Shown: one piece after another, positions 1,100 through 56,849 of the stretch
Layout of the letters: each line of letters starts with the position of its first letter
How positions within the stretch are numbered: position 1 is the first letter of the stretch
NCBI RefSeq assembly: GCF_026155325.1
Contig: NZ_JAPFPW010000001.1
Location: 62,001-126,000 of the forward strand
Length of the DNA: 64,000 bases
Direction: 5' to 3'
Source: Desulfobotulus pelophilus
Lineage (GTDB): Bacteria; Desulfobacterota; Desulfobacteria; Desulfobacterales; ASO4-4
Notes under the pieces: model-generated
Told to the model about the DNA's origin: nothing
The model's input: the letters and a program-made list of their open reading frames with translations, nothing else
Database searches by the model: none
Translations under genes and position numbers: made by a program

Positions 1100-1951
1100 C
1101 TATGGCTGTCCTCTGAACTGGTAAAATACGGAGTTCAGGTATTTTTTAGGTTCAAAAAGTGCTGTTTCATTGCTTAGGGATTCTGTGGAACCGATGAGAA
1201 GATAACCATCTGTTTCCAGTACGCCCGCAATTTTCTGGTACAGGAGTTTGCGGTCCTGAGGGCTGAAGTAAATGGCTACATTCCGACAGAAGATAATATC
1301 AAATTTTCCAAATCCGGTAAAAGGTCTCATGAGGTTCATTTTACGAAAGGAGGCCATGGCCCGGATTTCATCTTTGATGCGCCAATGTTCACCGTCCCGG
1401 TTGAAATATTTCTGCAGTCTTTGCGGCGTAAGACCACGGGCTGCTTCGAATTTATTATAGCGACCATAGCTGGCCTGGGCAACGGCAGCATCGGATATAT
1501 CCGTTCCCACAAGGTGGATATCATAATCCTTCAGGTTCAGTCCCAGTTCTTTCAATACCATGGCTATGGAATAGATTTCCTGACCTGTGGAGCTGGCGGC
1601 GCTCCAGACTCGGATCGGAGTTCTGCCTCCGAATTTTTTTCCGGCCCGACTCCGTTTGTCAATGAGGTCCGGAATAATCTTGTGCTGAAGCAGATCAAAG
1701 GGGTGCTTATCCCGGAAAAAATAAGTCTCGTTTGTCGAAATGGCATCGATGACATTTTTTTCAAGGGTTTTTTGAAAATCCCTCTGAATTTTCTGGTAAA
1801 GATCCGTAAAGGTTTTACACCCTTGTTCTTCCAGAAGGGGGTGCAGGCGAGTTTCCACCAGATACTCTTTTCCCGGGGCAAGGGCAATGCCGGATATCTC
1901 GAGGATATATTTTGAAAAGAGGGTAAATTCTTGGGGAGTTATTTTAATCAT
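1100..1951 (-). CDS. cheR: CheR, chemoreceptor glutamate methyltransferase
   Basis: CheR transfers methyl groups from S-adenosylmethionine to glutamates of chemoreceptors during adaptation. The 283-residue product has the helical N-terminal domain (about 1-75), the NETYFFR motif (74-80), an SAM-binding loop SAASSTGQE (117-125; the cysteine common in this loop is serine here), GTDIS (149-153) and CRNVAIYF (222-229). No C-terminal TPR extension is present. It lies 13 bases downstream of cheB, its antagonist, so the two are almost certainly co-transcribed with cheA and cheW. Confidence 0.95.
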   Translation of the reverse strand: MIKITPQEFTLFSKYILEISGIALAPGKEYLVETRLHPLLEEQGCKTFTDLYQKIQRDFQKTLEKNVIDAISTNETYFFRDKHPFDLLQHKIIPDLIDKRSRAGKKFGGRTPIRVWSAASSTGQEIYSIAMVLKELGLNLKDYDIHLVGTDISDAAVAQASYGRYNKFEAARGLTPQRLQKYFNRDGEHWRIKDEIRAMASFRKMNLMRPFTGFGKFDIIFCRNVAIYFSPQDRKLLYQKIAGVLETDGYLLIGSTESLSNETALFEPKKYLNSVFYQFRGQP

Positions 1952-1964
1952 GGGCCACCGGAGT

Positions 1965-3095
1965 TTAAGGGCGAACGGTTTTTAGAATAGCCGAAGCAAT
2001 ATCATTCAGGGGCACCACAATATCCGCTGTTCCGGATTCAATGGGCTCTTTGGGCATGCCGAATACGGTGCAGCTCGCTTCATCCTGGGCGATGATGTGA
2101 GCGCCGGAGTTTTTCATTTCCTTAATGCCTGCTGCACCATCATATCCCATTCCAGTCATGATGACACCCGTTGCCCGCCCAACATAATGGCTGGCCACAG
2201 ACCGGAAAAGGTAGTCTGCCGAAGGACGACAGCTGTTTTCCGGAGGATCATCCGTAATCTTGATCATTCGGTTTTTTCCGTCTCCTGCTGCGACAACCCT
2301 CATCTGTCTGCCGCCAGGTGCTATATAGGCTGTATTGTTCCGCAGGATTTCTCCCTGCTCCGCTTCCTTGACCTCTATGGTGCATTTGGCATTCAGGCTT
2401 TTGGCCAGAGAAGCGGTAAAGACAGGAGGCATATGCTGAACAATAAGAATGGGGACTCCCATATCACCGGGCAGCATGGGCATCATGCGGGCCAGTGCAT
2501 TGGGACCTCCCGTCGAAATACCTATGGCGACAATCTCCGAACGGGATTTGCGCATGGATAGTTTCTGCATCCGCTGGGTAATGTCTGCTGGAGATGGGCT
2601 GCGGGCTGTGACGGATGCGGTCTGTCCTGTGCGCAGGCTGTTTCCCACTGGTGGAGGAGTGACTCCTCGCAGGCGCTGCCGTATATCTTTTCTGCGCTGA
2701 AAAGTCTGGATAATGGGTACCAGAATACTGCGAACGGCTTCCAGATTTTCCGTCATGGTGCCGCTTTGGGGTTTTGGAACAAAATCAAAGGCACCCAGTT
2801 CCAGAGCCCGTATGGTGATATCCCCACCTCGGGTGGTCAGGGTGCTGAGCATGACCACCCCAACATCGGGAGATATACGGTTCAGTTCCTCAAGAACTTC
2901 CAGCCCATTCATTTCAGGCATCTCCACATCCAGGGTAATGAGATCCGGTTTCAGGGATGCAATACGGGAAAGGGCTATTTTTCCATTATTGGCGCTGCCA
3001 ACTACCTGTATGCCGGGTATGGTGGAAAGGATATCGCTGACTATTTTCCGGTATACAATGGTATCATCAACAACGAGAACACGAAGCTGGCTCAC
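1965..3095 (-). CDS. cheB: CheB, receptor methylesterase/deamidase response regulator
   Basis: The 376-residue protein starts with GTG. It has an N-terminal receiver domain (about 1-125, acidic pocket D10/D11, phospho-acceptor D56 in TLDVEMPEMNG), a linker of about 55 residues, and a C-terminal methylesterase domain. The catalytic triad is visible as S194 (GISTGGP), H221 (VQHMPP) and D319 (GMGYDGAAG). CheB removes methyl groups from chemoreceptors when phosphorylated by CheA. It sits between cheW and cheR in the minus-strand operon. All catalytic residues are present, so it should be active. Confidence 0.95.
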   Translation of the reverse strand: MSQLRVLVVDDTIVYRKIVSDILSTIPGIQVVGSANNGKIALSRIASLKPDLITLDVEMPEMNGLEVLEELNRISPDVGVVMLSTLTTRGGDITIRALELGAFDFVPKPQSGTMTENLEAVRSILVPIIQTFQRRKDIRQRLRGVTPPPVGNSLRTGQTASVTARSPSPADITQRMQKLSMRKSRSEIVAIGISTGGPNALARMMPMLPGDMGVPILIVQHMPPVFTASLAKSLNAKCTIEVKEAEQGEILRNNTAYIAPGGRQMRVVAAGDGKNRMIKITDDPPENSCRPSADYLFRSVASHYVGRATGVIMTGMGYDGAAGIKEMKNSGAHIIAQDEASCTVFGMPKEPIESGTADIVVPLNDIASAILKTVRP

Positions 3096-3195
3096 GGATA
3101 ATAATTTCCATTTAGTAAGGTCATGGTAAGGACATCAAGGGCCGGTAACCCGGGAGGTCAGACTGCCAATGGCGGTTGGTCCGGATGGTTTGCTA

Positions 3196-3654
3196 TCAGT
3201 GTTCGTCCAGAACGGCGTTGATATCGAGAAGGCCGATGAGTTTTTTTTCTGTCTTGAACACTCCGTGAAAGAAACGACCCTGTACTCCTCCAATATTGGA
3301 AGGCGGTGGTTCAATGCGGGAAGCTTCCGCCACCAGTACATCACTGATGCTGTCCACAAGGAGGCCGATCTGTTCGTCTTTGAAGTCAACAATGATGGTA
3401 CGGTTGTCTTTGCCAGGCTCAATGGATGAAAGCCCGAGCTTGATGCCAAGGTCAATGATAGTGACAATTCTGCCTCGGAGATTGAGTACGCCCTGAACGT
3501 ATTCGGCAGCCTGGGGTACGGTGGTTACTTCGGTCTGTTTGTTGATTTCCTGGATTCTGAGTATGTCAATACCACAGAGGGCATCTCCGATATAGAAAGT
3601 GGCCAGTTCCAGTATTCCGTTTTCAGAAGTGTTTTTTTCCGCATGTTTTTGCAT
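3196..3654 (-). CDS. cheW: CheW, coupling protein
   Basis: CheW links chemoreceptors to the CheA kinase. The product has 152 residues when started at the ATG at 3654, which has GAGG about nine bases upstream; an in-frame upstream start would add 15 residues without a comparable ribosome site. It is a single CheW domain with the characteristic segment YVQGVLNLRGRIVTIIDLG (residues 52-70) and the IGLLVD segment near residue 100. It lies between cheA and cheB on the same strand. Confidence 0.94.
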   Translation of the reverse strand: MQKHAEKNTSENGILELATFYIGDALCGIDILRIQEINKQTEVTTVPQAAEYVQGVLNLRGRIVTIIDLGIKLGLSSIEPGKDNRTIIVDFKDEQIGLLVDSISDVLVAEASRIEPPPSNIGGVQGRFFHGVFKTEKKLIGLLDINAVLDEH

Positions 3655-3720
3655 AGTTATTTTCCTCACAAGGCACCGGTAGGAAAGCCTCTGGGGCATG
3701 GACCTGCCCCACGGGGCAGG

Positions 3721-6700
3721 TTATACGCTGCTGGCCATGCAGTCCCGTATGGAAATGAGCAGTTTTTCCCGGTCCAGTTTAATCTGATAGTCATCAATGC
3801 CCACAGCCTGCCCCTTTAATATGTCTCCTTCCCCTGCAAGGGAAGTGAGGGCAATGACCGTCAGGTGGGAGAATCGGACATCTCCTTTGATTTTACGGGT
3901 AAGTTCAAAGCCATCCATGTTGGGCATTTCAAGATCTGTGAGGACAAGGGTAACTTCATCCATGTGTTTTTCCAAAAGGTGGAAGGCTTCCACCCCATCT
4001 TCGGCAACAATCACATCATACCCGTCTTCCTTCAGAAAACTTGTAACCTGGTTGCGGAAAAAAGCCGAGTCTTCCGCGAAAAGAATTTTGGAACCTCCCA
4101 GGCTTTTTCCTTCTCCTCCCAGCATAACCGGACTTGCGGAGAGCCCCGTGAACCATTCCGGGTTCAGGGTTTTGACGACTTCAAAAATATCCACCATCAG
4201 GGTGGTTTTCCCGCCAATAATCATGGAGCCCATAATACCCGGTTGTTTCAGTGTGGACGCATCCACGTTGAGGGTGGCTTCCACGGCATCCACAGGTGGG
4301 CTGACCATGAGTCCAATCTCTTTACCCGCAAATCTGAAAACAATCACCTCCACCTGTTCTCTTTCGGGCAGGGGTTGGATATTGGCTACTTCCCCCAGTT
4401 CATGCAGAGGCAGTGAACCTCCCCGGTACTGCACAACCCGTTTCCCCCCAACGTATTCAATGTCGGTGTATTTGATGCGTTCTATGCGCTCCACGAGGTT
4501 CAGAGGGACACCGAACTGTTCTTTTTCTGAATTGCGGAAGAGGAGCAGGGAGGCTTTGTCTTCCTGTCGCTGAGTACTTTCAATGAGTTCTTTTTCCGCG
4601 TGGGCCAGGGTTTTGGATGCCCCGCTGGAAGAAAGAGTGGCCATTTCCGCAAGGGAAGCCACGTCCAGAATCAGGGCAACCCGTCCGTCGCCCATAATGG
4701 TTGCTCCCGCATAGCCTTTGCAGTCTTTCAGATGGCGGCCCAGGGGTTTTACGACAATTTCTTCAGAATCCCGGAGTTGATCCACCACCAGCCCATAACG
4801 GAAGGTTCCTGTGGACACAACGGCTATATTGATGGCGCTGTCTGCTCTGAACCGTCGGTCGGTCTGTTTTCTTGGGGATTTTTCTGTTTTGGAGGATTGC
4901 TTTTCCTGATCAGAATCCAGCTGGGGAGACCGACGGTCGGCGATGTTGACCCGCCGGTCGGGTTTTTCTTCCCCTGTTTCAGGATCAATATAGGTTTTGG
5001 GAAGGCCAAGAACCTCCGAAAGATCCAGAAGGGGAAGCAGTGTGCCACGGAGGCGAACAACGGCCGCTTTGCCTACTTTCTCGATGCGGTCCTTTACCTG
5101 AGCGGCCGGAATACGGAGGAGCTCATTGAGGTTCACCTGAGGAATGGCATAGCGTTCCCTGCCCACGGAAATGATCTGGCTGGGAATAATGGCAAGAGTG
5201 AGCGGAAGTTTGATGCGAATGATGGTGCCGGATCCGACTTTGGAATCAATATCCACAATACCGCCAAGACGGTCCAGATTGGTTTTCACCACGTCCATTC
5301 CCACGCCGCGGCCGGATACATCCGTAACCTGCTGGGCCGTTGAAAATCCGGGGAGAAAAATCAGGTTGATTTTTTCCTTGGCACTCATGGTCTGTACGTC
5401 CTGCTCCGTAATCAGTCCCTTGGAAAGGGCAGAGCGGGAGATGGCTTCAGGATCAAGTCCCTTGCCGTCATCTTCGATTTCAATGTTCACCTGTCCGGCT
5501 TCGTGGAAGGCTTTCAGGCGTATGGTACCGGCTCGGGGTTTGCCGCTTCGCTGGCGTATATCAGACGTTTCGATACCATGGTCCACGGAGTTTCGGACCA
5601 GATGGGTCAGTGGATCATTGATGGCTTCAATGATGGTTTTATCCAGTTCAACCTCTTTTCCTTCGATCTTGAGGTTGATTTCCTTGGCGAGGGATTTGGA
5701 AAGATCCCGTACCACTCTGGTAAATTTATTGAAAACGTTGGCAATGGGCTGCATGCGCGTGCGCATGATTGCTTCCTGAAGTTCGGAGGTGATCATGTCG
5801 ATCCGCTGGCCAGCAGCTTCAATTGCCTGGGAGCTGCTGGTGGAGATGCCCTGCGTGAGCTGGTTACGGCTGAGAACGAGCTCTCCTGCAAGGGTCATCA
5901 GGGTATCCAGCAGATTTACATTGACACGCAGGGACGCCTGAACCTTCTGTTTGTCATTCCGGGTGATATCGAGGCCTTCATCATCTCCGTCATCGGCGGT
6001 TTCCTGAAGTGGCGCAACATTTGGTACTGTCGGAGGGGGAGGTATCGGAGGCGCAGGCCTTGCCGGTGCGGCTGGAGGCATTTCCTTAGTGCTGGTTTCC
6101 TGTTTCCGGGCTGGCGTAGCGGGATGAGCCTCCTGTGCCGGTGGGCTTTTTGAAACGACCTTACTGGGGTGATCCGTAACCGTCAGTCTTTCCTGTGTGG
6201 CTTCAGGGGAAATATGGTGAACATATTCGGGATCCAGATCCACAAGAATGGAGGCCATATCCGGCTCAATGATGGATGCAAAAAGAACGAGGAACGGAAT
6301 TCTGCCGGGCAATTCATCCTCCAGAGTACCGACGGCTTCAAAATTAATTTTTGAGTCCAGTATAATACCGCTGTTCAGGAGAGACGTGATGACATCCAAT
6401 GGAGTTTTGTTTTTTTTCTGGATGTCCTGAAGCATATCAAATTCAAGGAGATAAAGGAATTTTCCGTGTTTGAATGCCTGATCAAGATCGAAGCGGGATG
6501 CTTCGAGCTGTGCGCTTCCCAGAGGATGCTGAATATGGACTTTTTCTCCCACGGTCTTTTTCTCCGCTTCCGGCAGTGAATCCTCCGTAATGGCAACCAG
6601 CGCCTGCAGCAGGGGATCAATATTGACATCATTGCTTGTTTCCACCTCCTGGATGAGCTCGCGGAGACGGTCAAAGGCCTGCAGAAGCACAGAGATGGTT

Positions 6701-6963
6701 TCCGCTGTTGGAACAAGTTCACGGCTGCGGACGAGTCCCAGAATATTTTCCAGGTTATGGGACAGATCTTTAATGGTACCAAGCCCCATAAAACCAGCCC
6801 CTCCTTTAATAGAGTGGGCCGCCCGGAACACGTTATTGACAAGATCCTCATCAATGTCAGCACCCTGAGATTCGATGGACAGCAGATCATTTTCAATGTC
6901 AGAGAGGTGTTCCAGGGACTCTTCAACATACATGCGCAGGGTTTCGTCATCTTCGAAAATCAT
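3721..6963 (-). CDS. cheA: CheA histidine kinase with second CheW domain and C-terminal receiver
   Basis: A 1080-residue hybrid kinase if started at 6963 (GGAGG seven bases upstream); a longer frame begins at 6990. Order of parts: HPt domain with phospho-histidine H50 (AAHSIKGG); a poorly recognised middle region (about 140-260); proline-rich linker (about 273-316); dimerisation helices; ATPase domain with N box near 454-463 (HLVRNSVDHG) and glycine boxes near 497-505 and 551-559; a regulatory CheW-like domain interrupted by a charged insert (about 661-706) with three DRR motifs; a second CheW-like domain (about 802-936); receiver domain with D1010. The fused receiver may act as phosphate sink or output, which is inferred. 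Confidence 0.93.
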   Translation of the reverse strand: MIFEDDETLRMYVEESLEHLSDIENDLLSIESQGADIDEDLVNNVFRAAHSIKGGAGFMGLGTIKDLSHNLENILGLVRSRELVPTAETISVLLQAFDRLRELIQEVETSNDVNIDPLLQALVAITEDSLPEAEKKTVGEKVHIQHPLGSAQLEASRFDLDQAFKHGKFLYLLEFDMLQDIQKKNKTPLDVITSLLNSGIILDSKINFEAVGTLEDELPGRIPFLVLFASIIEPDMASILVDLDPEYVHHISPEATQERLTVTDHPSKVVSKSPPAQEAHPATPARKQETSTKEMPPAAPARPAPPIPPPPTVPNVAPLQETADDGDDEGLDITRNDKQKVQASLRVNVNLLDTLMTLAGELVLSRNQLTQGISTSSSQAIEAAGQRIDMITSELQEAIMRTRMQPIANVFNKFTRVVRDLSKSLAKEINLKIEGKEVELDKTIIEAINDPLTHLVRNSVDHGIETSDIRQRSGKPRAGTIRLKAFHEAGQVNIEIEDDGKGLDPEAISRSALSKGLITEQDVQTMSAKEKINLIFLPGFSTAQQVTDVSGRGVGMDVVKTNLDRLGGIVDIDSKVGSGTIIRIKLPLTLAIIPSQIISVGRERYAIPQVNLNELLRIPAAQVKDRIEKVGKAAVVRLRGTLLPLLDLSEVLGLPKTYIDPETGEEKPDRRVNIADRRSPQLDSDQEKQSSKTEKSPRKQTDRRFRADSAINIAVVSTGTFRYGLVVDQLRDSEEIVVKPLGRHLKDCKGYAGATIMGDGRVALILDVASLAEMATLSSSGASKTLAHAEKELIESTQRQEDKASLLLFRNSEKEQFGVPLNLVERIERIKYTDIEYVGGKRVVQYRGGSLPLHELGEVANIQPLPEREQVEVIVFRFAGKEIGLMVSPPVDAVEATLNVDASTLKQPGIMGSMIIGGKTTLMVDIFEVVKTLNPEWFTGLSASPVMLGGEGKSLGGSKILFAEDSAFFRNQVTSFLKEDGYDVIVAEDGVEAFHLLEKHMDEVTLVLTDLEMPNMDGFELTRKIKGDVRFSHLTVIALTSLAGEGDILKGQAVGIDDYQIKLDREKLLISIRDCMASSV

Positions 6964-6979
6964 GGTGCGCCTCCAGGTG

Positions 6980-7180
6980 TTACGGATCAAGGATTGTATT
7001 CCCCTGCCTGATCATGGAATACGCGGAGCAGGGTGAGGGGTAAGGAGGGGAGTCGGGAGTGTCTGCCGTTGTCACAAGCAGATCTTTTTCCTGAAAGAGG
7101 AGCATTCCGGCTTCCCGTTTTTTAGCCAGAAACTGGCTCAGGCCATTCTGAAGACATAGGGAAACGTCTGTTTTATCCAT
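6980..7180 (-). CDS. Small protein of unknown function between U32 peptidase and cheA
   Basis: I do not recognise this 66-residue product. Its ATG overlaps the end of the upstream peptidase gene by eight bases (ATGGATAA), and its stop lies 16 bases before the cheA ATG, so it fills the gap exactly and looks translationally coupled. The first 40 residues are mixed and soluble-looking; a proline/serine-rich stretch (about 43-55) follows. There is no signal peptide, membrane segment or metal motif. It could be a genuine small operon member or a chance frame in a leader; position favours the former only moderately. Confidence 0.45.
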   Translation of the reverse strand: MDKTDVSLCLQNGLSQFLAKKREAGMLLFQEKDLLVTTADTPDSPPYPSPCSAYSMIRQGNTILDP

Positions 7181-51203: not shown

Positions 51204-51303
51204 GATCAATCCTTGTTCTACCCTGGTGCTGGAAGGCTTCAGGGCCAGAGTGTCTGTCTTGGCAGACGTTGCCGATGTGGTTGATGTCCATGGGTACGGT
51301 TGA

Positions 51304-51546
51304 CTACACGCCACATCCCGCGCAGCTGGAAGCAGAACATCCGGAACATCCGGATGTGGCCGCACTCCTTGTTACGGTAGGTTCTCCTCCGGTACCTGTA
51401 CCTTTGCTGACAAAACCACAGGCAGACATCAGACGCTGGGCATTTTCGCTGTTGCAATAGGGACAGCCGGGAGTTTCATCCCGTTTCATTACCAGAGATT
51501 CAAACTTTCTGGAGCAGGACTGACAATGGTATTCATAGATGGGCAT
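51304..51546 (-). CDS. FmdB/CxxC zinc-ribbon regulatory-like protein
   Basis: An 80-residue protein beginning MPIYEYHCQSCSRKFE with a second pair CPYC, the zinc ribbon of the FmdB family. The tail is unusually rich in cysteine, glycine and serine (SGCSGCSASSCAGCGV), which suggests extra metal binding or flexibility. GGGAGG precedes the ATG. It lies 100 bases upstream of cobA-hemD on the same strand and may share its transcript. The biochemical role of the family is unclear. Confidence 0.85.
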   Translation of the reverse strand: MPIYEYHCQSCSRKFESLVMKRDETPGCPYCNSENAQRLMSACGFVSKGTGTGGEPTVTRSAATSGCSGCSASSCAGCGV

Positions 51547-51675
51547 GGTATCCTCCCTTTTGTAAGTAGTTGAAAAATATAAAAAATCATTTTTTACAGG
51601 GTTGGCTGGTTGCGTGCTTGCCCTGATCCGGGTACCTGTATAAACCTTACTACAATAAGCACTCTGCTTCCGGAG

Positions 51676-52968
51676 TCAAAGAAGCTTATGGCTGTCTGAA
51701 GAGGAAGATTCTTCGGTATTATTTTCAAGCAGAGTTTCTTCACTCTCCGTCAGCACCATTCCTTTTTTCTGCGCCAGACGAAAGAGCGGTTGTGCCATTT
51801 CTATCTGTTTCTGACGGAAGCGGATCCGTGCCAGGCGGAGGGCAAATAAGCCATTGTCAGGTTCTTCCTTCAAGGCTTCTTCGCAGAAAGTAGCTGCTAT
51901 ATCCGGATTTTCTCCCTTCAGATCGAAGCATGCCCCCAGACCGGACAGTACACCAGGGTCCCTTGGCATGCGGCGCAGGGCCTGCCTGTACAGGGCAAAA
52001 GCGCGGGTAAGGTCATTGTGTTGAAAGCAGGCTTCCGCCAGATTTTTGAGAACGGGCCCGTTTTCTGGCTTTAGAGAATGGGCCTTTTCCAGGCAGGGAA
52101 GGGCTTCGGCAGTTTTGCCTTGCATCATAAGATTTTTCCCAAGGTGGAAGGCGCTTTCAAAGCTATCCGGATGAAGATGGAGAGCTTTTACAAAGCATTG
52201 TCTTGCTTTTTCTGTCTCTCCCTGCATCTCGTGAATCAATCCCTCATTGTACACGGGCATGGCCTCTGTGGGCTCTGCAGCATGGCTTCTGGCAAAGGCA
52301 TCCAGTGCTTTGGGAAGATTCTGCAGCACACCAAAACAGACGCCAAGGCTGTTAAGAACATTGGCATTGTCAGGGTCCAGGGTCAGAGCGGCTTCATATT
52401 CGGCAATGGCGTCCTTGATATGGCCTTTCTGGTATGCCTCATCTCCGGAGATGTTGAGGCTCACGGCATCAAATTCTGCAACGGAGCCAGGGCCGAGAAG
52501 AAGACTGTGGGCCAGAGCTTTGCGACCATAGCCGATAGCCATGGAAGAAGAAAAGTTGGCCAGCGGATGGGAGTATATGCCTGCCGAAAGTAGGCCGTGC
52601 TGATGCTGTTTCAGTCTGTGAAAAATACACTTTGCCTCGGCAGATCCCTTCTGGTGCAAAAAAATAAAAAAGACATCCTGCTCCTGGGCAACGAGGATTT
52701 TTTTCTCCGGTGTGTCAGCAAGACCGGCAAGTTCCCTTTCCAGCTCAGGGCAGGGGCTCTCCGTTCGGAGGAGCATGATAGAAAAAGGAAGGCAGGACTC
52801 CTGCCCGATAACGGACAGGAGAGCTTTTGGATCCGGAAACCGTGCAGGTTCTTCCTTGATCGGCTGTGTGGCTGCCTGAGAAGGTGAGGGGGCTGCAGAA
52901 GGATCGGGATTCCCGTTGCTGCGGAGAAAAGGATCCGGGGATTCCTGTAGCAGGGCACTGGCCTTCAT
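51676..52968 (-). CDS. TPR protein coupled to selA
   Basis: A 430-residue protein. The first 60 residues are low-complexity. Residues about 60-185 form an alpha/beta region with an IGYGRKALAHSLLLGPGSVAEF segment (here only noted for its resemblance to the end of degenerate GGDEF domains). From about 190 on come at least six TPR units, for example AIAEYEAALTLDPDNANVLN and ARQCFVKALHLHPDSFES. The ATG overlaps the selA stop by four bases. A scaffold role is likely; a link to selenium metabolism is not shown. selB would be more usual here. Confidence 0.82.
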   Translation of the reverse strand: MKASALLQESPDPFLRSNGNPDPSAAPSPSQAATQPIKEEPARFPDPKALLSVIGQESCLPFSIMLLRTESPCPELERELAGLADTPEKKILVAQEQDVFFIFLHQKGSAEAKCIFHRLKQHQHGLLSAGIYSHPLANFSSSMAIGYGRKALAHSLLLGPGSVAEFDAVSLNISGDEAYQKGHIKDAIAEYEAALTLDPDNANVLNSLGVCFGVLQNLPKALDAFARSHAAEPTEAMPVYNEGLIHEMQGETEKARQCFVKALHLHPDSFESAFHLGKNLMMQGKTAEALPCLEKAHSLKPENGPVLKNLAEACFQHNDLTRAFALYRQALRRMPRDPGVLSGLGACFDLKGENPDIAATFCEEALKEEPDNGLFALRLARIRFRQKQIEMAQPLFRLAQKKGMVLTESEETLLENNTEESSSSDSHKLL

Positions 52969-54404
52969 GGAGTCTCCTTTTGGGGGCGCTCATGGATGGA
53001 TAGGGTTGAAAAAAGGGTGGCAAAGGCCTGAACAATGATAGCCGTTTCTTCTTCCTGCAGGGTGCGGACATCCATAAGAAAGGAATCTTCCTCCACCCGG
53101 CCCATGATGGGCGGTGTGTGACTGCGCAGTTGCCGTTCAAGGGCTGCGGCGGAAAGGTGAGAACACCGGATGACTACACAGCGGCTGGGAAGATCCTGAG
53201 TGGGCAGCGAGCCCCCGCCAGCTCTGGCTGTGCTTGGCTGGATACGGATATCCATTGCCGGAAGAGAAAGGGATCGAAGCTGGTCCTGAAGTTCTTGCGC
53301 TTTGCGGATGCAGGCGTTTTCTGAAAGGGTCAGCATTCGCAGGGTCGGGATAGTTGTGAGGGCTTTGGCTGGATCCCGGTACAGTCGTAAAGTTCCTTCC
53401 AGTGCGGCAAGGATCAGTTTGTCGATACGGAGGGCACGGGTCAGAGGATTGCTGCGAATGGTTTCGATCCAGGATTTTTTCCCCACAATTATACCGGCCT
53501 GAGGTCCGCCAAGGAGTTTGTCTCCGCTGAAAGTGACAATATCCGCGCCTGCTTCAAGGGATTCCTGTACGGTAGGCTCTTTGGTAAGGCCATAGGGAGA
53601 AAAATCAATGAAAGAACCGGAGCCGAGATCATCCATTACAGGGATTCCATGTTTGCGGCCCAGAGCGGCAAGGTCTTTCATGGAAACGGAAGCGGTAAAT
53701 CCCATAATCTGAAAATTGCTGGTATGAACTTTGAGAAGAAGGCCTGTTTTTTCGCTGATGGCTGTTTCATAATCCTGAAGATGGGTCCGGTTGGTGGTAC
53801 CCACCTCCTTCAGAATGGCTCCGCTTTTGGTCATGACGTCCGGGATGCGGAAGGAGCCTCCTATTTCCACTAATTCGCCCCGGGAGACGATGGCTTCTTT
53901 GTTTCGGGTAAGGGTGTCCAGACATAAAAGAACGGCTGCCGCATTGTTGTTGACAACCATGGCAGCCTCGGCTCCGGTGATCTCTGTGAGAAGGGAGGAA
54001 ACGGCTGTGTAGCGCAGTCCCCGTTTCCCGGTGTCGAGATTGAGTTCGAGGTTGCTGTAGTGGTTCGCAACGGAGAGAATGTGCTGGAGGGCTTCTTCCG
54101 CAAGAAGGGATCGGCCCATATTGGTGTGAACGACAACACCGGTGGCATTGATGACTCTCCTTAGATTGGGCTGTATGGCTGCGGAGAACAGCGGATGGAT
54201 TTCTGCGATGAGCCGGGGAATCTCGAGAGTGCTTATGTCCTGCAGCCTGCCTTCAAGGATAGCCCTACGCTTTGCCTCCAGAACCTGTCGGATAATGCGG
54301 GTTCTGAGGTTTTTGGGCAGATCCTCCCCGCAGCGGATATGGTCCGTTTCCAGAAGAAGGGTGTCTACTCCGGGAAGATGCCGCAAAAGTTGCTGGGTGC
54401 TCAT
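52965..54404 (-). CDS. selA: SelA, L-seryl-tRNA(Sec) selenium transferase
   Basis: The 479-residue PLP enzyme converts seryl-tRNA(Sec) to selenocysteyl-tRNA using selenophosphate. It has the N-terminal domain, RRVINATGVVVHTNMGRSLL, VNNNAAAVLL, and the PLP lysine K296 in FSGDKLLGGPQAG. Its presence implies that the organism makes selenoproteins. selB, selC and selD are not in this window, and I saw no selenoprotein gene with an in-frame TGA here. It overlaps the TPR gene by four bases. Confidence 0.95.
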   Translation of the reverse strand: MSTQQLLRHLPGVDTLLLETDHIRCGEDLPKNLRTRIIRQVLEAKRRAILEGRLQDISTLEIPRLIAEIHPLFSAAIQPNLRRVINATGVVVHTNMGRSLLAEEALQHILSVANHYSNLELNLDTGKRGLRYTAVSSLLTEITGAEAAMVVNNNAAAVLLCLDTLTRNKEAIVSRGELVEIGGSFRIPDVMTKSGAILKEVGTTNRTHLQDYETAISEKTGLLLKVHTSNFQIMGFTASVSMKDLAALGRKHGIPVMDDLGSGSFIDFSPYGLTKEPTVQESLEAGADIVTFSGDKLLGGPQAGIIVGKKSWIETIRSNPLTRALRIDKLILAALEGTLRLYRDPAKALTTIPTLRMLTLSENACIRKAQELQDQLRSLSLPAMDIRIQPSTARAGGGSLPTQDLPSRCVVIRCSHLSAAALERQLRSHTPPIMGRVEEDSFLMDVRTLQEEETAIIVQAFATLFSTLSIHERPQKETP

Positions 54405-54434
54405 GGGTTTTCTGTCAACTTTCTGCTGCCAGCC

Positions 54435-55808
54435 CTATCGGGAGGGCCCGGATTTCAGGTAAAGGACATTTTCCGGTTGCATACCAAAAACATCCATGGG
54501 CAGGGTGTCAATGAATTTTTCAAAGTCCGCAGGTGTCATGCCGATGACGGCCAGACGTTCTGTGATGCTCCCCTTGCTGGATTCCGGAAAAACACCGGAC
54601 TGGAAGCGGGCCATGATGAGATCCGCAGCATGAACAATATAGGCAAGCCGACTGACCCCATGACCCTCTTCGGGTTTATGATGATGGCGGATGGCATGGA
54701 TCAGACTTTCCGGAAAGGCCCATTTCAGTCCCAGCTTGGCACCCACTTCACAGTGATCCACTCCGAGGATGCGCCGCTCTACTTCAAGGATACGGTGTTT
54801 TTCATTCTTCATACCCCTGTAGAAAAGCGGACAGGCGGATGTGATATGCTGATCCAGCACAACCATGCCGATGTCATGCAGAAGTCCGGCCGTATAGGCC
54901 GTAGCCGGATGAACAATGCCCGTGGCAACGGCAAGGTGTTCCGCCACAACGGCAGTACCCATGGCATGGTGAAAGAGGCCGCCTTTGCAGAGCGAATATA
55001 CGGAGTCGCTTTGCTTGTAAAAGGTTTTAAGTGCAGCTGAAATAATTGATTTAACGAGCGTTTGCTGGCCAAGCAGGACAAGTGCATCGTCAATGGACGC
55101 AACCTGATTCCGGCCCGCATAAAGGGCTGCATTGCACATACGCAGTGTTTGGGCCGTTATGACCTGATCTTTACGGACTTCCTTTGCAATATCCCTGAAA
55201 TCAGCATCCTCGTAGGTGATCATCCGAAGAATTTTGAGGGCCACCTGAGGAATGGGTTTGAGGGCGGTGACACTGGCGGCAATGGCATCAGCGGAAGGAG
55301 GTTCGTAATGAAAGGCTTCCTCCGGATCCCGAAGAAGGCCGGAGGGATGGATGCGGGTTTTGCCACTGGTAAGGTTCAGTTCCAGTGTACAGGTGAAAAA
55401 ACCGCCGGTTTCCGATGCAACAACAGGAACCTGGTACCGCTTCAACAGTTCATGGACCATTTCCGTTGTGCGGCCGCCTATGTCTAGGGCCATATCCTGT
55501 TCGCTCACTGGTCCCACCAGCGCACCTCCTGCTACGGTGGCCCGCATGTTATCGGGATGTGAACCTTTTTCAATGAGAGCTTTCAGGAAAGCGGGGACAC
55601 CGGTGCTGGCATATTTACCCGGATGGGTGCCGGAAGATCCGGAGACAGGCTCGGGAAGCAGCATATGCAGAAGTCCTCCCACCCCTGCCACTGTGTCATA
55701 AATTGATACGCCCACACAGGTTCCCAGAAGGGCTTTGAGGATCAGTGGCTGGTTACCGGAAGCAACGAGAAATTGTCCCGAAGCAACGTAGTGGATGCTG
55801 GATTCCAT
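54435..55808 (-). CDS. CheD-HDOD fusion protein
   Basis: A 457-residue fusion read from the ATG at 55808 (GGGAG upstream; another ATG at 55820 adds four residues). Residues about 1-160 are a CheD receptor deamidase domain with catalytic C31 (LLGTCVGVSIYD) and H48 (GGLLHMLLP), 17 residues apart as in T. maritima CheD. Residues about 175-380 are an HDOD domain (KPIPQVALKILRM ... DDALVLLGQQTLVKSII) that keeps an HD pair at H311-D312. It may join chemoreceptor adaptation to another signalling output. It lies about 50 kb from the che operon in this window. Confidence 0.88.
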   Translation of the reverse strand: MESSIHYVASGQFLVASGNQPLILKALLGTCVGVSIYDTVAGVGGLLHMLLPEPVSGSSGTHPGKYASTGVPAFLKALIEKGSHPDNMRATVAGGALVGPVSEQDMALDIGGRTTEMVHELLKRYQVPVVASETGGFFTCTLELNLTSGKTRIHPSGLLRDPEEAFHYEPPSADAIAASVTALKPIPQVALKILRMITYEDADFRDIAKEVRKDQVITAQTLRMCNAALYAGRNQVASIDDALVLLGQQTLVKSIISAALKTFYKQSDSVYSLCKGGLFHHAMGTAVVAEHLAVATGIVHPATAYTAGLLHDIGMVVLDQHITSACPLFYRGMKNEKHRILEVERRILGVDHCEVGAKLGLKWAFPESLIHAIRHHHKPEEGHGVSRLAYIVHAADLIMARFQSGVFPESSKGSITERLAVIGMTPADFEKFIDTLPMDVFGMQPENVLYLKSGPSR

Positions 55809-56129
55809 AAATACTCCCATTGTTTACCGGCTTTTGCCGGAATATTGCAAAACGTTCCTACATACCATTTCAGAGGCGTTGGATTCAAGCCCGATTCCTG
55901 TACCCGGAAAAAAGACCTTGCCCTGTAAAATGTTCTCTGCAAATCTCTTCCGTTGGATACGGCAGGCAATGCCTTGCCGTTCTCTTCTGTATCGTGGTGA
56001 AGAATCACAGGTTTTTTTAAGAAAGGGTGTTGTGGCAGGCCGTTGATCTCTGTGAGCCCGTTTGTTGACGGGTTGGAGGGCGCCCAAGCCTGGTATGATT
56101 AACTCAATGTATACTATTTTGGAGGCTTT
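55809..56129. other. Divergent intergenic region between cheD-HDOD and pyrF
   Basis: About 320 bases with no supported gene. TATGAT at 56094-56099 may be a -10 element for pyrF, but a properly spaced -35 is not evident. GGAGG directly precedes the pyrF ATG. Short frames on both strands lack coding character. Confidence 0.5.
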
Positions 56130-56849
56130 ATGCATACGGCTGTTTCGTCCCGTCTTATTTTTGCCCTGGACTTTCCAGATTTTTTGTCCGCAGCTCCCGT
56201 ACTTTCCATGCTTGCTGGGAAGGTGGGAGTGGTGAAAATCGGTCTGGAGCTTTTTTTAGGAGAAGGGCCTTCGATTGTAGAAAAAGTTCGGGAAAAAAGT
56301 GATGCCCTTGTTTTTCTGGACTTAAAACTCCATGATATTCCGGCTACCGTGGAAAGAAGTGTCCGGAATCTGAAAAGGCTGGGGGTAGATTATCTGACCC
56401 TGCATACGGCAGGGGGCAGGGAAATGCTGTCCAGAGCTGCGGATGCTGCCGGTGCGGAAATGAAATTACTGGGGGTAACGGTTCTTACCAGCAGCGGACC
56501 GGAGACACTGGAGCAGACGGGACTTATGCTGTCAGGATGCGGGGGTATGGAAAACCTTGTTCTGATAAGGGCCCTGCTTGCAAAAGAATGCGGTCTTGCC
56601 GGTGTGATATGCTCCGCCCATGAGGCCAGGGAGGTGAAAAGGGTGGGAGGGAACGTCTTTCTTGCCGTGACACCGGGAATCCGGCCTCTCTGGAGTCTGG
56701 GGCAAGGGGATGACCAGCGACGGGTAATGTCGCCGGGAACAGCCCTTAAGGCAGGGGCCGATATGCTGGTTGTGGGGCGTCCCATCCGGGATGCGGCGGA
56801 TCCCGGATGGGCAGCAGACCAGATTCTTACGGAGATGGCAGCCGGATAA
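56130..56849 (+). CDS. pyrF: Orotidine 5'-phosphate decarboxylase
   Basis: The 239-residue enzyme makes UMP from OMP, the last step of pyrimidine synthesis. Conserved parts are FALDFPD at the N-terminus and the catalytic D-K-x-x-D motif in VFLDLKLHDIPATV. The phosphate-binding region VTPGIRPLW and the C-terminal VVGRPIRDAADP complete it. GGAGG precedes the ATG. It is an isolated plus-strand gene between minus-strand units. Confidence 0.96.
   Translation: MHTAVSSRLIFALDFPDFLSAAPVLSMLAGKVGVVKIGLELFLGEGPSIVEKVREKSDALVFLDLKLHDIPATVERSVRNLKRLGVDYLTLHTAGGREMLSRAADAAGAEMKLLGVTVLTSSGPETLEQTGLMLSGCGGMENLVLIRALLAKECGLAGVICSAHEAREVKRVGGNVFLAVTPGIRPLWSLGQGDDQRRVMSPGTALKAGADMLVVGRPIRDAADPGWAADQILTEMAAG

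Follow-up and report, generated by a model that had tools for sequence, protein, structure and literature searches.

CheD-HDOD fusion proteins in Desulfobotulus pelophilus and other Desulfobacterota: a two-domain family with a possible role outside the chemoreceptor array

CheD is described as a deamidase of chemoreceptors (MCPs). The catalytic triad of the T. maritima enzyme consists of Cys27, His44 and Thr21, and the third active-site residue is variable in the wider CheD-like fold family, as stated in the accessible part of PMC7022378. For the family member NTAN1, the same part of that source reports that replacement of the third residue by alanine costs about 5-fold and that Cys and His are essential. 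In B. subtilis, the variant CheD-F102E deamidates, but it binds CheC and receptors poorly and gives a null-like chemotaxis phenotype (PMC3513319, accessible part).

The HDOD domain is known from proteins with motility phenotypes such as SadB, GsmR, PSPTO_4229 and Cj0248. SadB, a c-di-GMP-binding protein, consists of two domains, of which HDOD is the C-terminal one (PMC6543031, PMC11813219 and PMC11004494, as far as their text was available). The mechanism of the HDOD domain is given as not established in the available text of PMC6543031, and che clusters of Geobacter contain HD-domain genes according to the accessible part of PMC2577667. Our literature search returned no paper with both CheD and HDOD; domain-architecture databases may list the combination.

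Here, we describe a gene from Desulfobotulus pelophilus in which the two domains are joined in one reading frame, together with its relatives in the order Desulfobacterales and the phylum Desulfobacterota. The fusion gives HDOD a fused partner of known chemistry. In addition, a CheD lineage with an intact active site in genomes without detectable MCPs would mean a second class of substrates, or a non-enzymatic role, for a protein that is described as a chemoreceptor deamidase.

The fusion gene and its surroundings

The gene lies in a stretch of 64,000 nucleotides from contig NZ_JAPFPW010000001.1 which was analysed as a whole and is called the window (Table 1). From its first ATG, the reading frame extends over positions 54435-55820 of the minus strand and encodes 461 amino acids; residue numbers of the fusion protein follow this 461-aa form. 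The ATG at 55808 is the likelier start, since the motif GGGAG is found just 5′ of it on the coding strand and the gene of Desulfobotulus alkaliphilus has a Met at the matching place. The product of the latter gene is 85% identical and was the sole relative in a scan of named genomes.

Table 1. Features of the window around the fusion gene, and a che cluster
Feature	Position	Strand	Remarks
CheD-HDOD fusion gene	54435..55808	-	457 aa from ATG 55808; 461 aa from ATG 55820
CheD domain	55341..55808	-	approx. residues 5-160; catalytic pair Cys35/His52 by alignment to T. maritima CheD
HDOD domain with HD superfamily match	54600..55283	-	approx. residues 180-407
HDOD ligand-type residues			H285, H315, D316, H356, H380, H381, D400
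selA	52965..54404	-	30 bp downstream of the fusion; neighbour, possibly co-transcribed
TPR-repeat protein gene	51676..52968	-	after selA; neighbour
pyrF	56130..56849	+	divergent neighbour upstream of the fusion
che cluster cheR, cheB, cheW, cheA	1100-6990		CheA with several CheW stretches and receiver

The first-pass annotation had read the product as CheD followed by HDOD in one protein, and Pfam bears this out with both matches above their cut-offs: CheD (PF03975) at residues 54-157 (E 8e-22; 77.9 bits, cut-off 25) and HDOD (PF08668) at residues 188-383 (E 1.6e-48; 165.3 bits, cut-off 22.9), the latter being full-length (profile positions 2-196 of 196). Within the fusion, HD (PF01966) matches residues 283-401 with 42.8 bits (cut-off 22), and the HDIG model TIGR00277 is also above its cut-off. 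A CheD match at the equivalog level of NCBIfam was not reached, nine models scoring 26-95 bits against cut-offs of 223-369. By sequence, the best relatives in the PDB are HDOD proteins and T. maritima CheD (2f9z). In the alignment to 2f9z, Cys27 and His44 correspond to Cys35 and His52, so the catalytic pair is indeed intact as had been claimed, and the GG and PGKYA motifs of CheD are found in the window protein. Metal sites of the HD superfamily follow the pattern H...HD...H...HH...D. This ligand pattern is present in the sequence of the HDOD half, and the HD residues said to be kept are all in place (Table 1). HD-GYP phosphodiesterases of c-di-GMP carry a GYP motif after the HH pair; it is absent from the window protein, where the stretch at H380-H381 reads HHHKPEEGHG, and Pfam gives it no match to HD_5 (PF13487).

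Between congeners, purifying selection acts on both domains. Against two congeners, dN/dS was 0.04 for CheD and 0.05-0.07 for HDOD, values that are approximate because dS exceeds 1 and synonymous sites are near saturation. An AlphaFold model from two sequences was uninformative (pLDDT 30). A fusion created by sequencing or assembly error, which the first-pass annotation had named as a possible refutation, was rejected: the window's genome and two congeners all have the joined frame open, and 84 of the order's 242 genomes contain homologues.

As had been noted, the gene stands apart from the che genes, with a che cluster about 47 kb away, and adjoins selA and pyrF. The 57 loci with long flanks were compared with gene families defined as BLAST clusters: selA stands at position +1 in 30 of them, the TPR gene at +2 in 19, and pyrF on the opposite strand at -1 or -2 in 23. 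This neighbourhood is best read as old inherited synteny. As 232 of the 242 genomes of the order carry selA anyway, synteny suffices to explain its adjacency, and selA or pyrF is a weak candidate for a functional partner. A gene with a GGDEF representative precedes the fusion in eight loci, and one with a REC-HD representative faces it in eight. By eye, the N-terminal 160 residues of the window's TPR protein resemble a worn GGDEF domain; its Pfam matches are mainly of TPR type and include no GGDEF. Outside the second type of fusion described below, a cheR was found in the locus for 3 of 145 fusion rows, a set that includes duplicates, third-type fusions and many loci with short flanks. These three are the window with its distant cheR, one locus that also has a che-type pair, and one of the third type. 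No convincing terminator or fold was detected between the fusion and selA (z -0.24), promoter-like and terminator-like counts in a scan of 51300-56200 were near those of shuffled sequence, and RNA families at gathering scores in the window were tRNAs only.

Distribution and relatives of the fusion

The order of the two domains proved to be widespread. In tblastn searches with the whole protein, 84 of the order's 242 genomes gave a fusion of the window's kind (main type), with 39-51% identity outside the genus, and 30 of 378 phylum genomes outside the order did so with 37-45% identity. The phylum sample held 395 genomes, 378 of them outside the order; there, the type was told by identity, and 25 of the 30 were fetched as loci. 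Among the 84, one fusion is cut by a contig end (G140) and one is shortened at the C-terminus to 377 aa (G191). Left out of the 84 were G092 (fusion in two frames), G097 (four stops) and G158 (contig-end cut). The G092 fusion (L138:5266-6834) is spread over two frames of 97 and 338 aa and represents a pseudogene or a sequencing error. Two main-type genes in tandem were observed in G049 (L127:260-3010), and in G613 (L189:67-2817) a main-type fusion adjoins a cheD-HDOD pair with Gly in place of the CheD Cys. A plasmid collection contained no fusion; among its 21 records with a match, cheD-HDOD pairs were present in two Leptospira records only.

In a CheD tree of 134 rows, 65 main fusions fall into one clade of 67 rows with an SH-aLRT of 100 and a long stem. 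The other two rows of this clade are a CheD without HDOD (G067) and the CheD of G158. In an HDOD tree of 59 rows, 16 representative main fusions form one clade, again with an SH-aLRT of 100; both trees were quick searches. The fusion protein is old and widespread in its phylum.

Residues were counted over 111 distinct main-type rows from 25 genomes outside the order and 84 within it, two of which contribute two copies each. Duplicate loci of one gene were dropped beforehand, the third-type loci L071 and L072 are outside the 111, and CheD segments shorter than 110 residues, including L157 (G124) and L176 (G191, Ser for Cys), are outside the residue counts. Cys35 is kept in 111 of 111 rows and His52 in 110. 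On the HDOD side, H285 and H315 are present in all 111 rows, D316, H356 and H380 in 110 each, and H381 in 108, while the D400 position holds Asp in 87, Asn in 18 and Glu in six. The surroundings of the catalytic pair differ from those of other CheDs. At the position of T. maritima Thr21, the main type has Glu (43), Gln (41), Lys (10) or other residues, with Lys in the window protein; all 17 second-type rows have Glu or Gln there, and Thr is found in 29 of the 37 CheDs from gene pairs and in 9 of the 22 solo forms. The Met-Phe that docks CheC and receptors is not kept, being Val-Gly in the window protein; 94 of the 111 rows have Gly where B. subtilis CheD has Phe102, and 35 of 37 paired CheDs have Leu or Met there. 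A conserved CheD Arg, retained in 17/17 second-type, 37/37 paired and 22/22 solo CheDs, is Cys in 81 main-type rows, Tyr in 11 and Arg in two. With Cys and His kept and the Thr, Phe and Arg positions replaced, the alignments indicate that the main type has retained the catalytic pair while its docking and substrate surroundings have changed. Loss of the Thr was rejected as proof of a dead enzyme, since the position varies among relatives and the corresponding change in NTAN1 costs about 5-fold in the account cited above.

A second type of fusion, with both catalytic residues in 17 of 17 rows (loci L217-L229, L073, L074, L077 and L139), was detected in three genomes of the order (G025, G042, G086; a fourth, G233, is partial) and in 13 of the 378 phylum genomes outside it, at 30-34% identity. 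Its HDODs group together in a single clade (support 90), whereas its CheDs are dispersed over the CheD tree with weak support. In 16 of its 17 loci cheR is the next ORF downstream, and in L077, which has a partial gene, it is the third. The operon comprises a REC-HTH regulator (near, often just upstream), CheD-HDOD, CheR, a hybrid sensor kinase and a second kinase, as assigned by similarity to the genes of L220 and L228, the kinases being seen where the contig goes on. The hybrid kinases carry invariant Gln/Glu heptads before HisKA in 11 of 11 cases, and the classical MCP methylation consensus, in the form applied here, was found in none of the 11. Gln/Glu heptads before HisKA are common in hybrid kinases. 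On one hypothesis for this operon, CheR and CheD would edit the hybrid kinase. All 13 second-type genomes outside the order have MCPs, and their CheR and CheD could serve these instead. A third type (L071 and L072, in G115 and G117) consists of very divergent CheD fusions whose HDOD-like half is weak; L072 falls outside the fusion clade.

CheD and HDOD are also encoded by adjoining genes. The window's genome has three CheDs. One of them belongs to an operon on contig 34 (L079) with the order cheR-cheA-cheD-HDOD-cheY-cheX-cheB, whose cheD shares 4 bases with the HDOD gene; a GGDEF gene stands in front of this operon. Another CheD (L080:6238-6750) is a divergent 170-aa form that groups with solo CheDs. 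In at least 37 of the 62 rows of non-fused CheD, the next gene downstream encodes an HDOD protein; as search rank decided which rows were taken, this share is not a frequency for the order. Of 37 HDODs from such pairs, 22 retain H315 and 15 have lost it. Among the best seven HDOD-only matches to the fusion, at least six adjoin a CheD (the seventh is in G237), which suggests that the fusion probably derived from two such neighbouring genes. In the CheD tree, the sampled CheDs of gene pairs sit in another part than the fusion clade, so that descent from the present pair type specifically is no more than suggested. Pairs were observed in further settings as well: in family f28 behind flgI, flgJ-like and flgN genes; in L154 and L168 (G187 and G029, without MCP and CheW) in a flagellar cluster with flgI and/or a rod-binding flgJ-like gene and flgN; and, in another phylum, in Leptospira interrogans (L216), where cheD and the HDOD gene are neighbours with no other che gene annotated nearby.

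Fusion genes in genomes without detectable chemoreceptors

MCPsignal was detected in 185 of the 242 genomes of the order. A CheD was present in 20 of the 57 genomes without it, including 14 with the main fusion that span six families. A repeated MCP search in which all candidates were scored gave no match in 16 genomes, namely these 14 together with G067 and G171. CheW was absent from 15 of the 16, with all six control genomes positive; the single CheW match, in G173, lies in a CheA-like frame at a contig end, and 13 of the 14 fusion genomes are without CheW. The absence of MCPs comes mostly from drafts: the 14 genomes are 78-97% complete, seven of them at 78-87%, and G029, G088 and G191 reach 97%. 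FliM, counted over 20 genomes, was found in 15 of the 16 and in all 14 with the fusion (G004, G029, G076, G088, G116, G124, G140, G150, G166, G173, G182, G187, G189 and G191; the fifteenth is G171). These 15 genomes, 14 of them without CheW, apparently have flagella without chemotaxis. In G067, a single case without MCP, CheW and FliM, a CheD of the fusion clade adjoins selA and lacks HDOD.

The fused CheD keeps both Cys and His in all 14 MCP-free genomes (14 rows). The unfused che-type CheDs of MCP-free genomes (12 rows) have Cys in five, Gly in six and a gap in one, and both Cys and His in three. Such losses are expected if receptor deamidation is no longer selected. The six Gly-for-Cys rows (L153, L155, L159, L160, L161 and L167; families f8 and f28) form one clade, probably represent one event, and most still adjoin an HDOD gene. 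This loss is not confined to MCP-free genomes, as the paired CheD of L189 (G613) belongs to a genome with MCPs.

In most genomes, fusion and MCPs occur together: 70 of the 84 fusion genomes in the order have MCPs, as do 43 of 43 outside it (13 of these with the second type), and the window's own genome has at least 14 MCP matches. Independence from MCPs is therefore seen within the order only, all fusion genomes outside it having MCPs. At least seven of the 14 MCP-free genomes have selA immediately behind the fusion; in G140, selA is on another contig. Within the order, chemoreceptors appear not to be required for keeping the fusion.

Proposed role and comparison with known systems

The first-pass annotation had proposed that the fusion ties receptor modification to a second pathway. 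In outline this stands, as CheD chemistry is joined to another signalling domain. Receptors as the target fit poorly with the intact Cys-His pair in the 14 MCP-free genomes, 13 of them without CheW, and with the Gly at the docking-Phe position in most of the family. Surface behaviour or nucleotide signalling, which it had offered as the second pathway, is possible. We propose an old two-domain signalling protein of the cytoplasm which works outside the chemoreceptor array as an HDOD-gated Cys-His amidase, a reading that we hold to be about evenly balanced between right and wrong. The CheD half would most likely still be a Cys-His glutamine amidase of CNF1/YfiH-like fold, and the changes of the third active-site residue, the docking residue and the conserved Arg suggest that partner and substrate are probably not MCPs. 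The HDOD half would most likely bind or hydrolyse a small ligand, perhaps a nucleotide, with metal binding predicted from its residues, and its ligand state may gate the amidase. Our best guess for the target is a coiled-coil protein linked to the flagellum or to a sensor kinase. By analogy, a nucleotide-sensing, flagellum-linked role is plausible, because HDOD proteins regulate motility elsewhere and SadB binds c-di-GMP in the published accounts accessible to us; the FliM in all 14 MCP-free fusion genomes would fit such a role.

The amidase reading has its caveats. The retained Cys and His could serve binding or be too recent to have decayed, and with the Thr replaced the enzyme could be weak or dead. 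A chemoreceptor deamidase of the ordinary kind that carries a regulatory tail, and whose copies in MCP-free genomes are relics or recent arrivals, would account for the intact Cys and His, for the MCPs of all fusion genomes outside the order and of five-sixths of those within it, and for the many MCPs of the window's genome. Retention of both residues in every MCP-free copy across six families and loss of the docking Phe and the conserved Arg across most of the family speak against it, and selA directly behind the fusion in half or more of the MCP-free genomes speaks against recent arrival; we consider it rather unlikely as a general explanation, while a receptor role in the MCP-bearing fusion genomes, which are the majority, is possible. 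The accessible part of PMC3513319 also gives weight to a purely binding function, since for chemotaxis of B. subtilis the binding by CheD outweighs its deamidation. CheD would then be a binding module and HDOD the output, a partner being sequestered according to the HDOD ligand, much like CheC and receptors by CheD in B. subtilis, with catalysis irrelevant. The Thr position changed in the fusions and the paired CheDs that lack Cys and still adjoin HDOD agree with this; near-invariance of Cys35 and His52 at about 37-51% identity outside the genus is hard to explain without catalysis, and makes it unlikely.

The amidase reading can be extended to a receptor-editing module freed from chemotaxis, an HDOD-gated amidase acting on coiled-coil Gln residues of non-MCP proteins, with the second type editing a kinase and the main type a flagellum- or surface-linked target. 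We put this forward tentatively, as a possibility with the chances against it. If true, the second-type operon would give a histidine kinase a chemotaxis-like adaptation through deamidation and methylation of the Gln/Glu heptads preceding its HisKA domain, and the main type would do likewise for its own target. Alternatively, the HDOD half may be an active metal phosphohydrolase acting on a nucleotide that CheD only regulates, as the complete set of HD ligands in almost every main fusion and the HD and HDIG matches above cut-offs would allow. The missing GYP motif, with HKPEEGHG after H380-H381 instead, the Asn or Glu at D400 in 24 of 111 rows, and the description of HDOD as lacking phosphodiesterase activity in the available text of PMC6543031 make this very improbable.

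Compared with the known CheD deamidases (PF03975; T. maritima 2f9z; B. subtilis), the fusion is alike in family, Cys-His pair, and GG and PGKYA motifs. It differs by the attached HDOD, by a third triad residue that is mostly Glu or Gln, by mostly Gly for the docking Phe and mostly Cys or Tyr for the conserved Arg, and by its occurrence in MCP-free genomes. The cheD-HDOD gene pairs of che and flagellar operons of the phylum and of Leptospira bring together the same two families in the same order, but as two genes that overlap or lie a few bases apart; the paired CheD mostly keeps the Thr and always the Arg, whereas the paired HDOD often loses H315. In SadB a YbaK-like domain takes the place of CheD, and the accessible parts of the sources on the motility-related HDOD proteins mention no amidase domain among them. 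NTAN1 shares the CheD-like fold, the Cys-His pair and the variable third residue with the fusion; as described in the accessible part of PMC7022378, its appended C-terminal region aids specificity for N-terminal Asn, whereas the fusion appends an HDOD domain.
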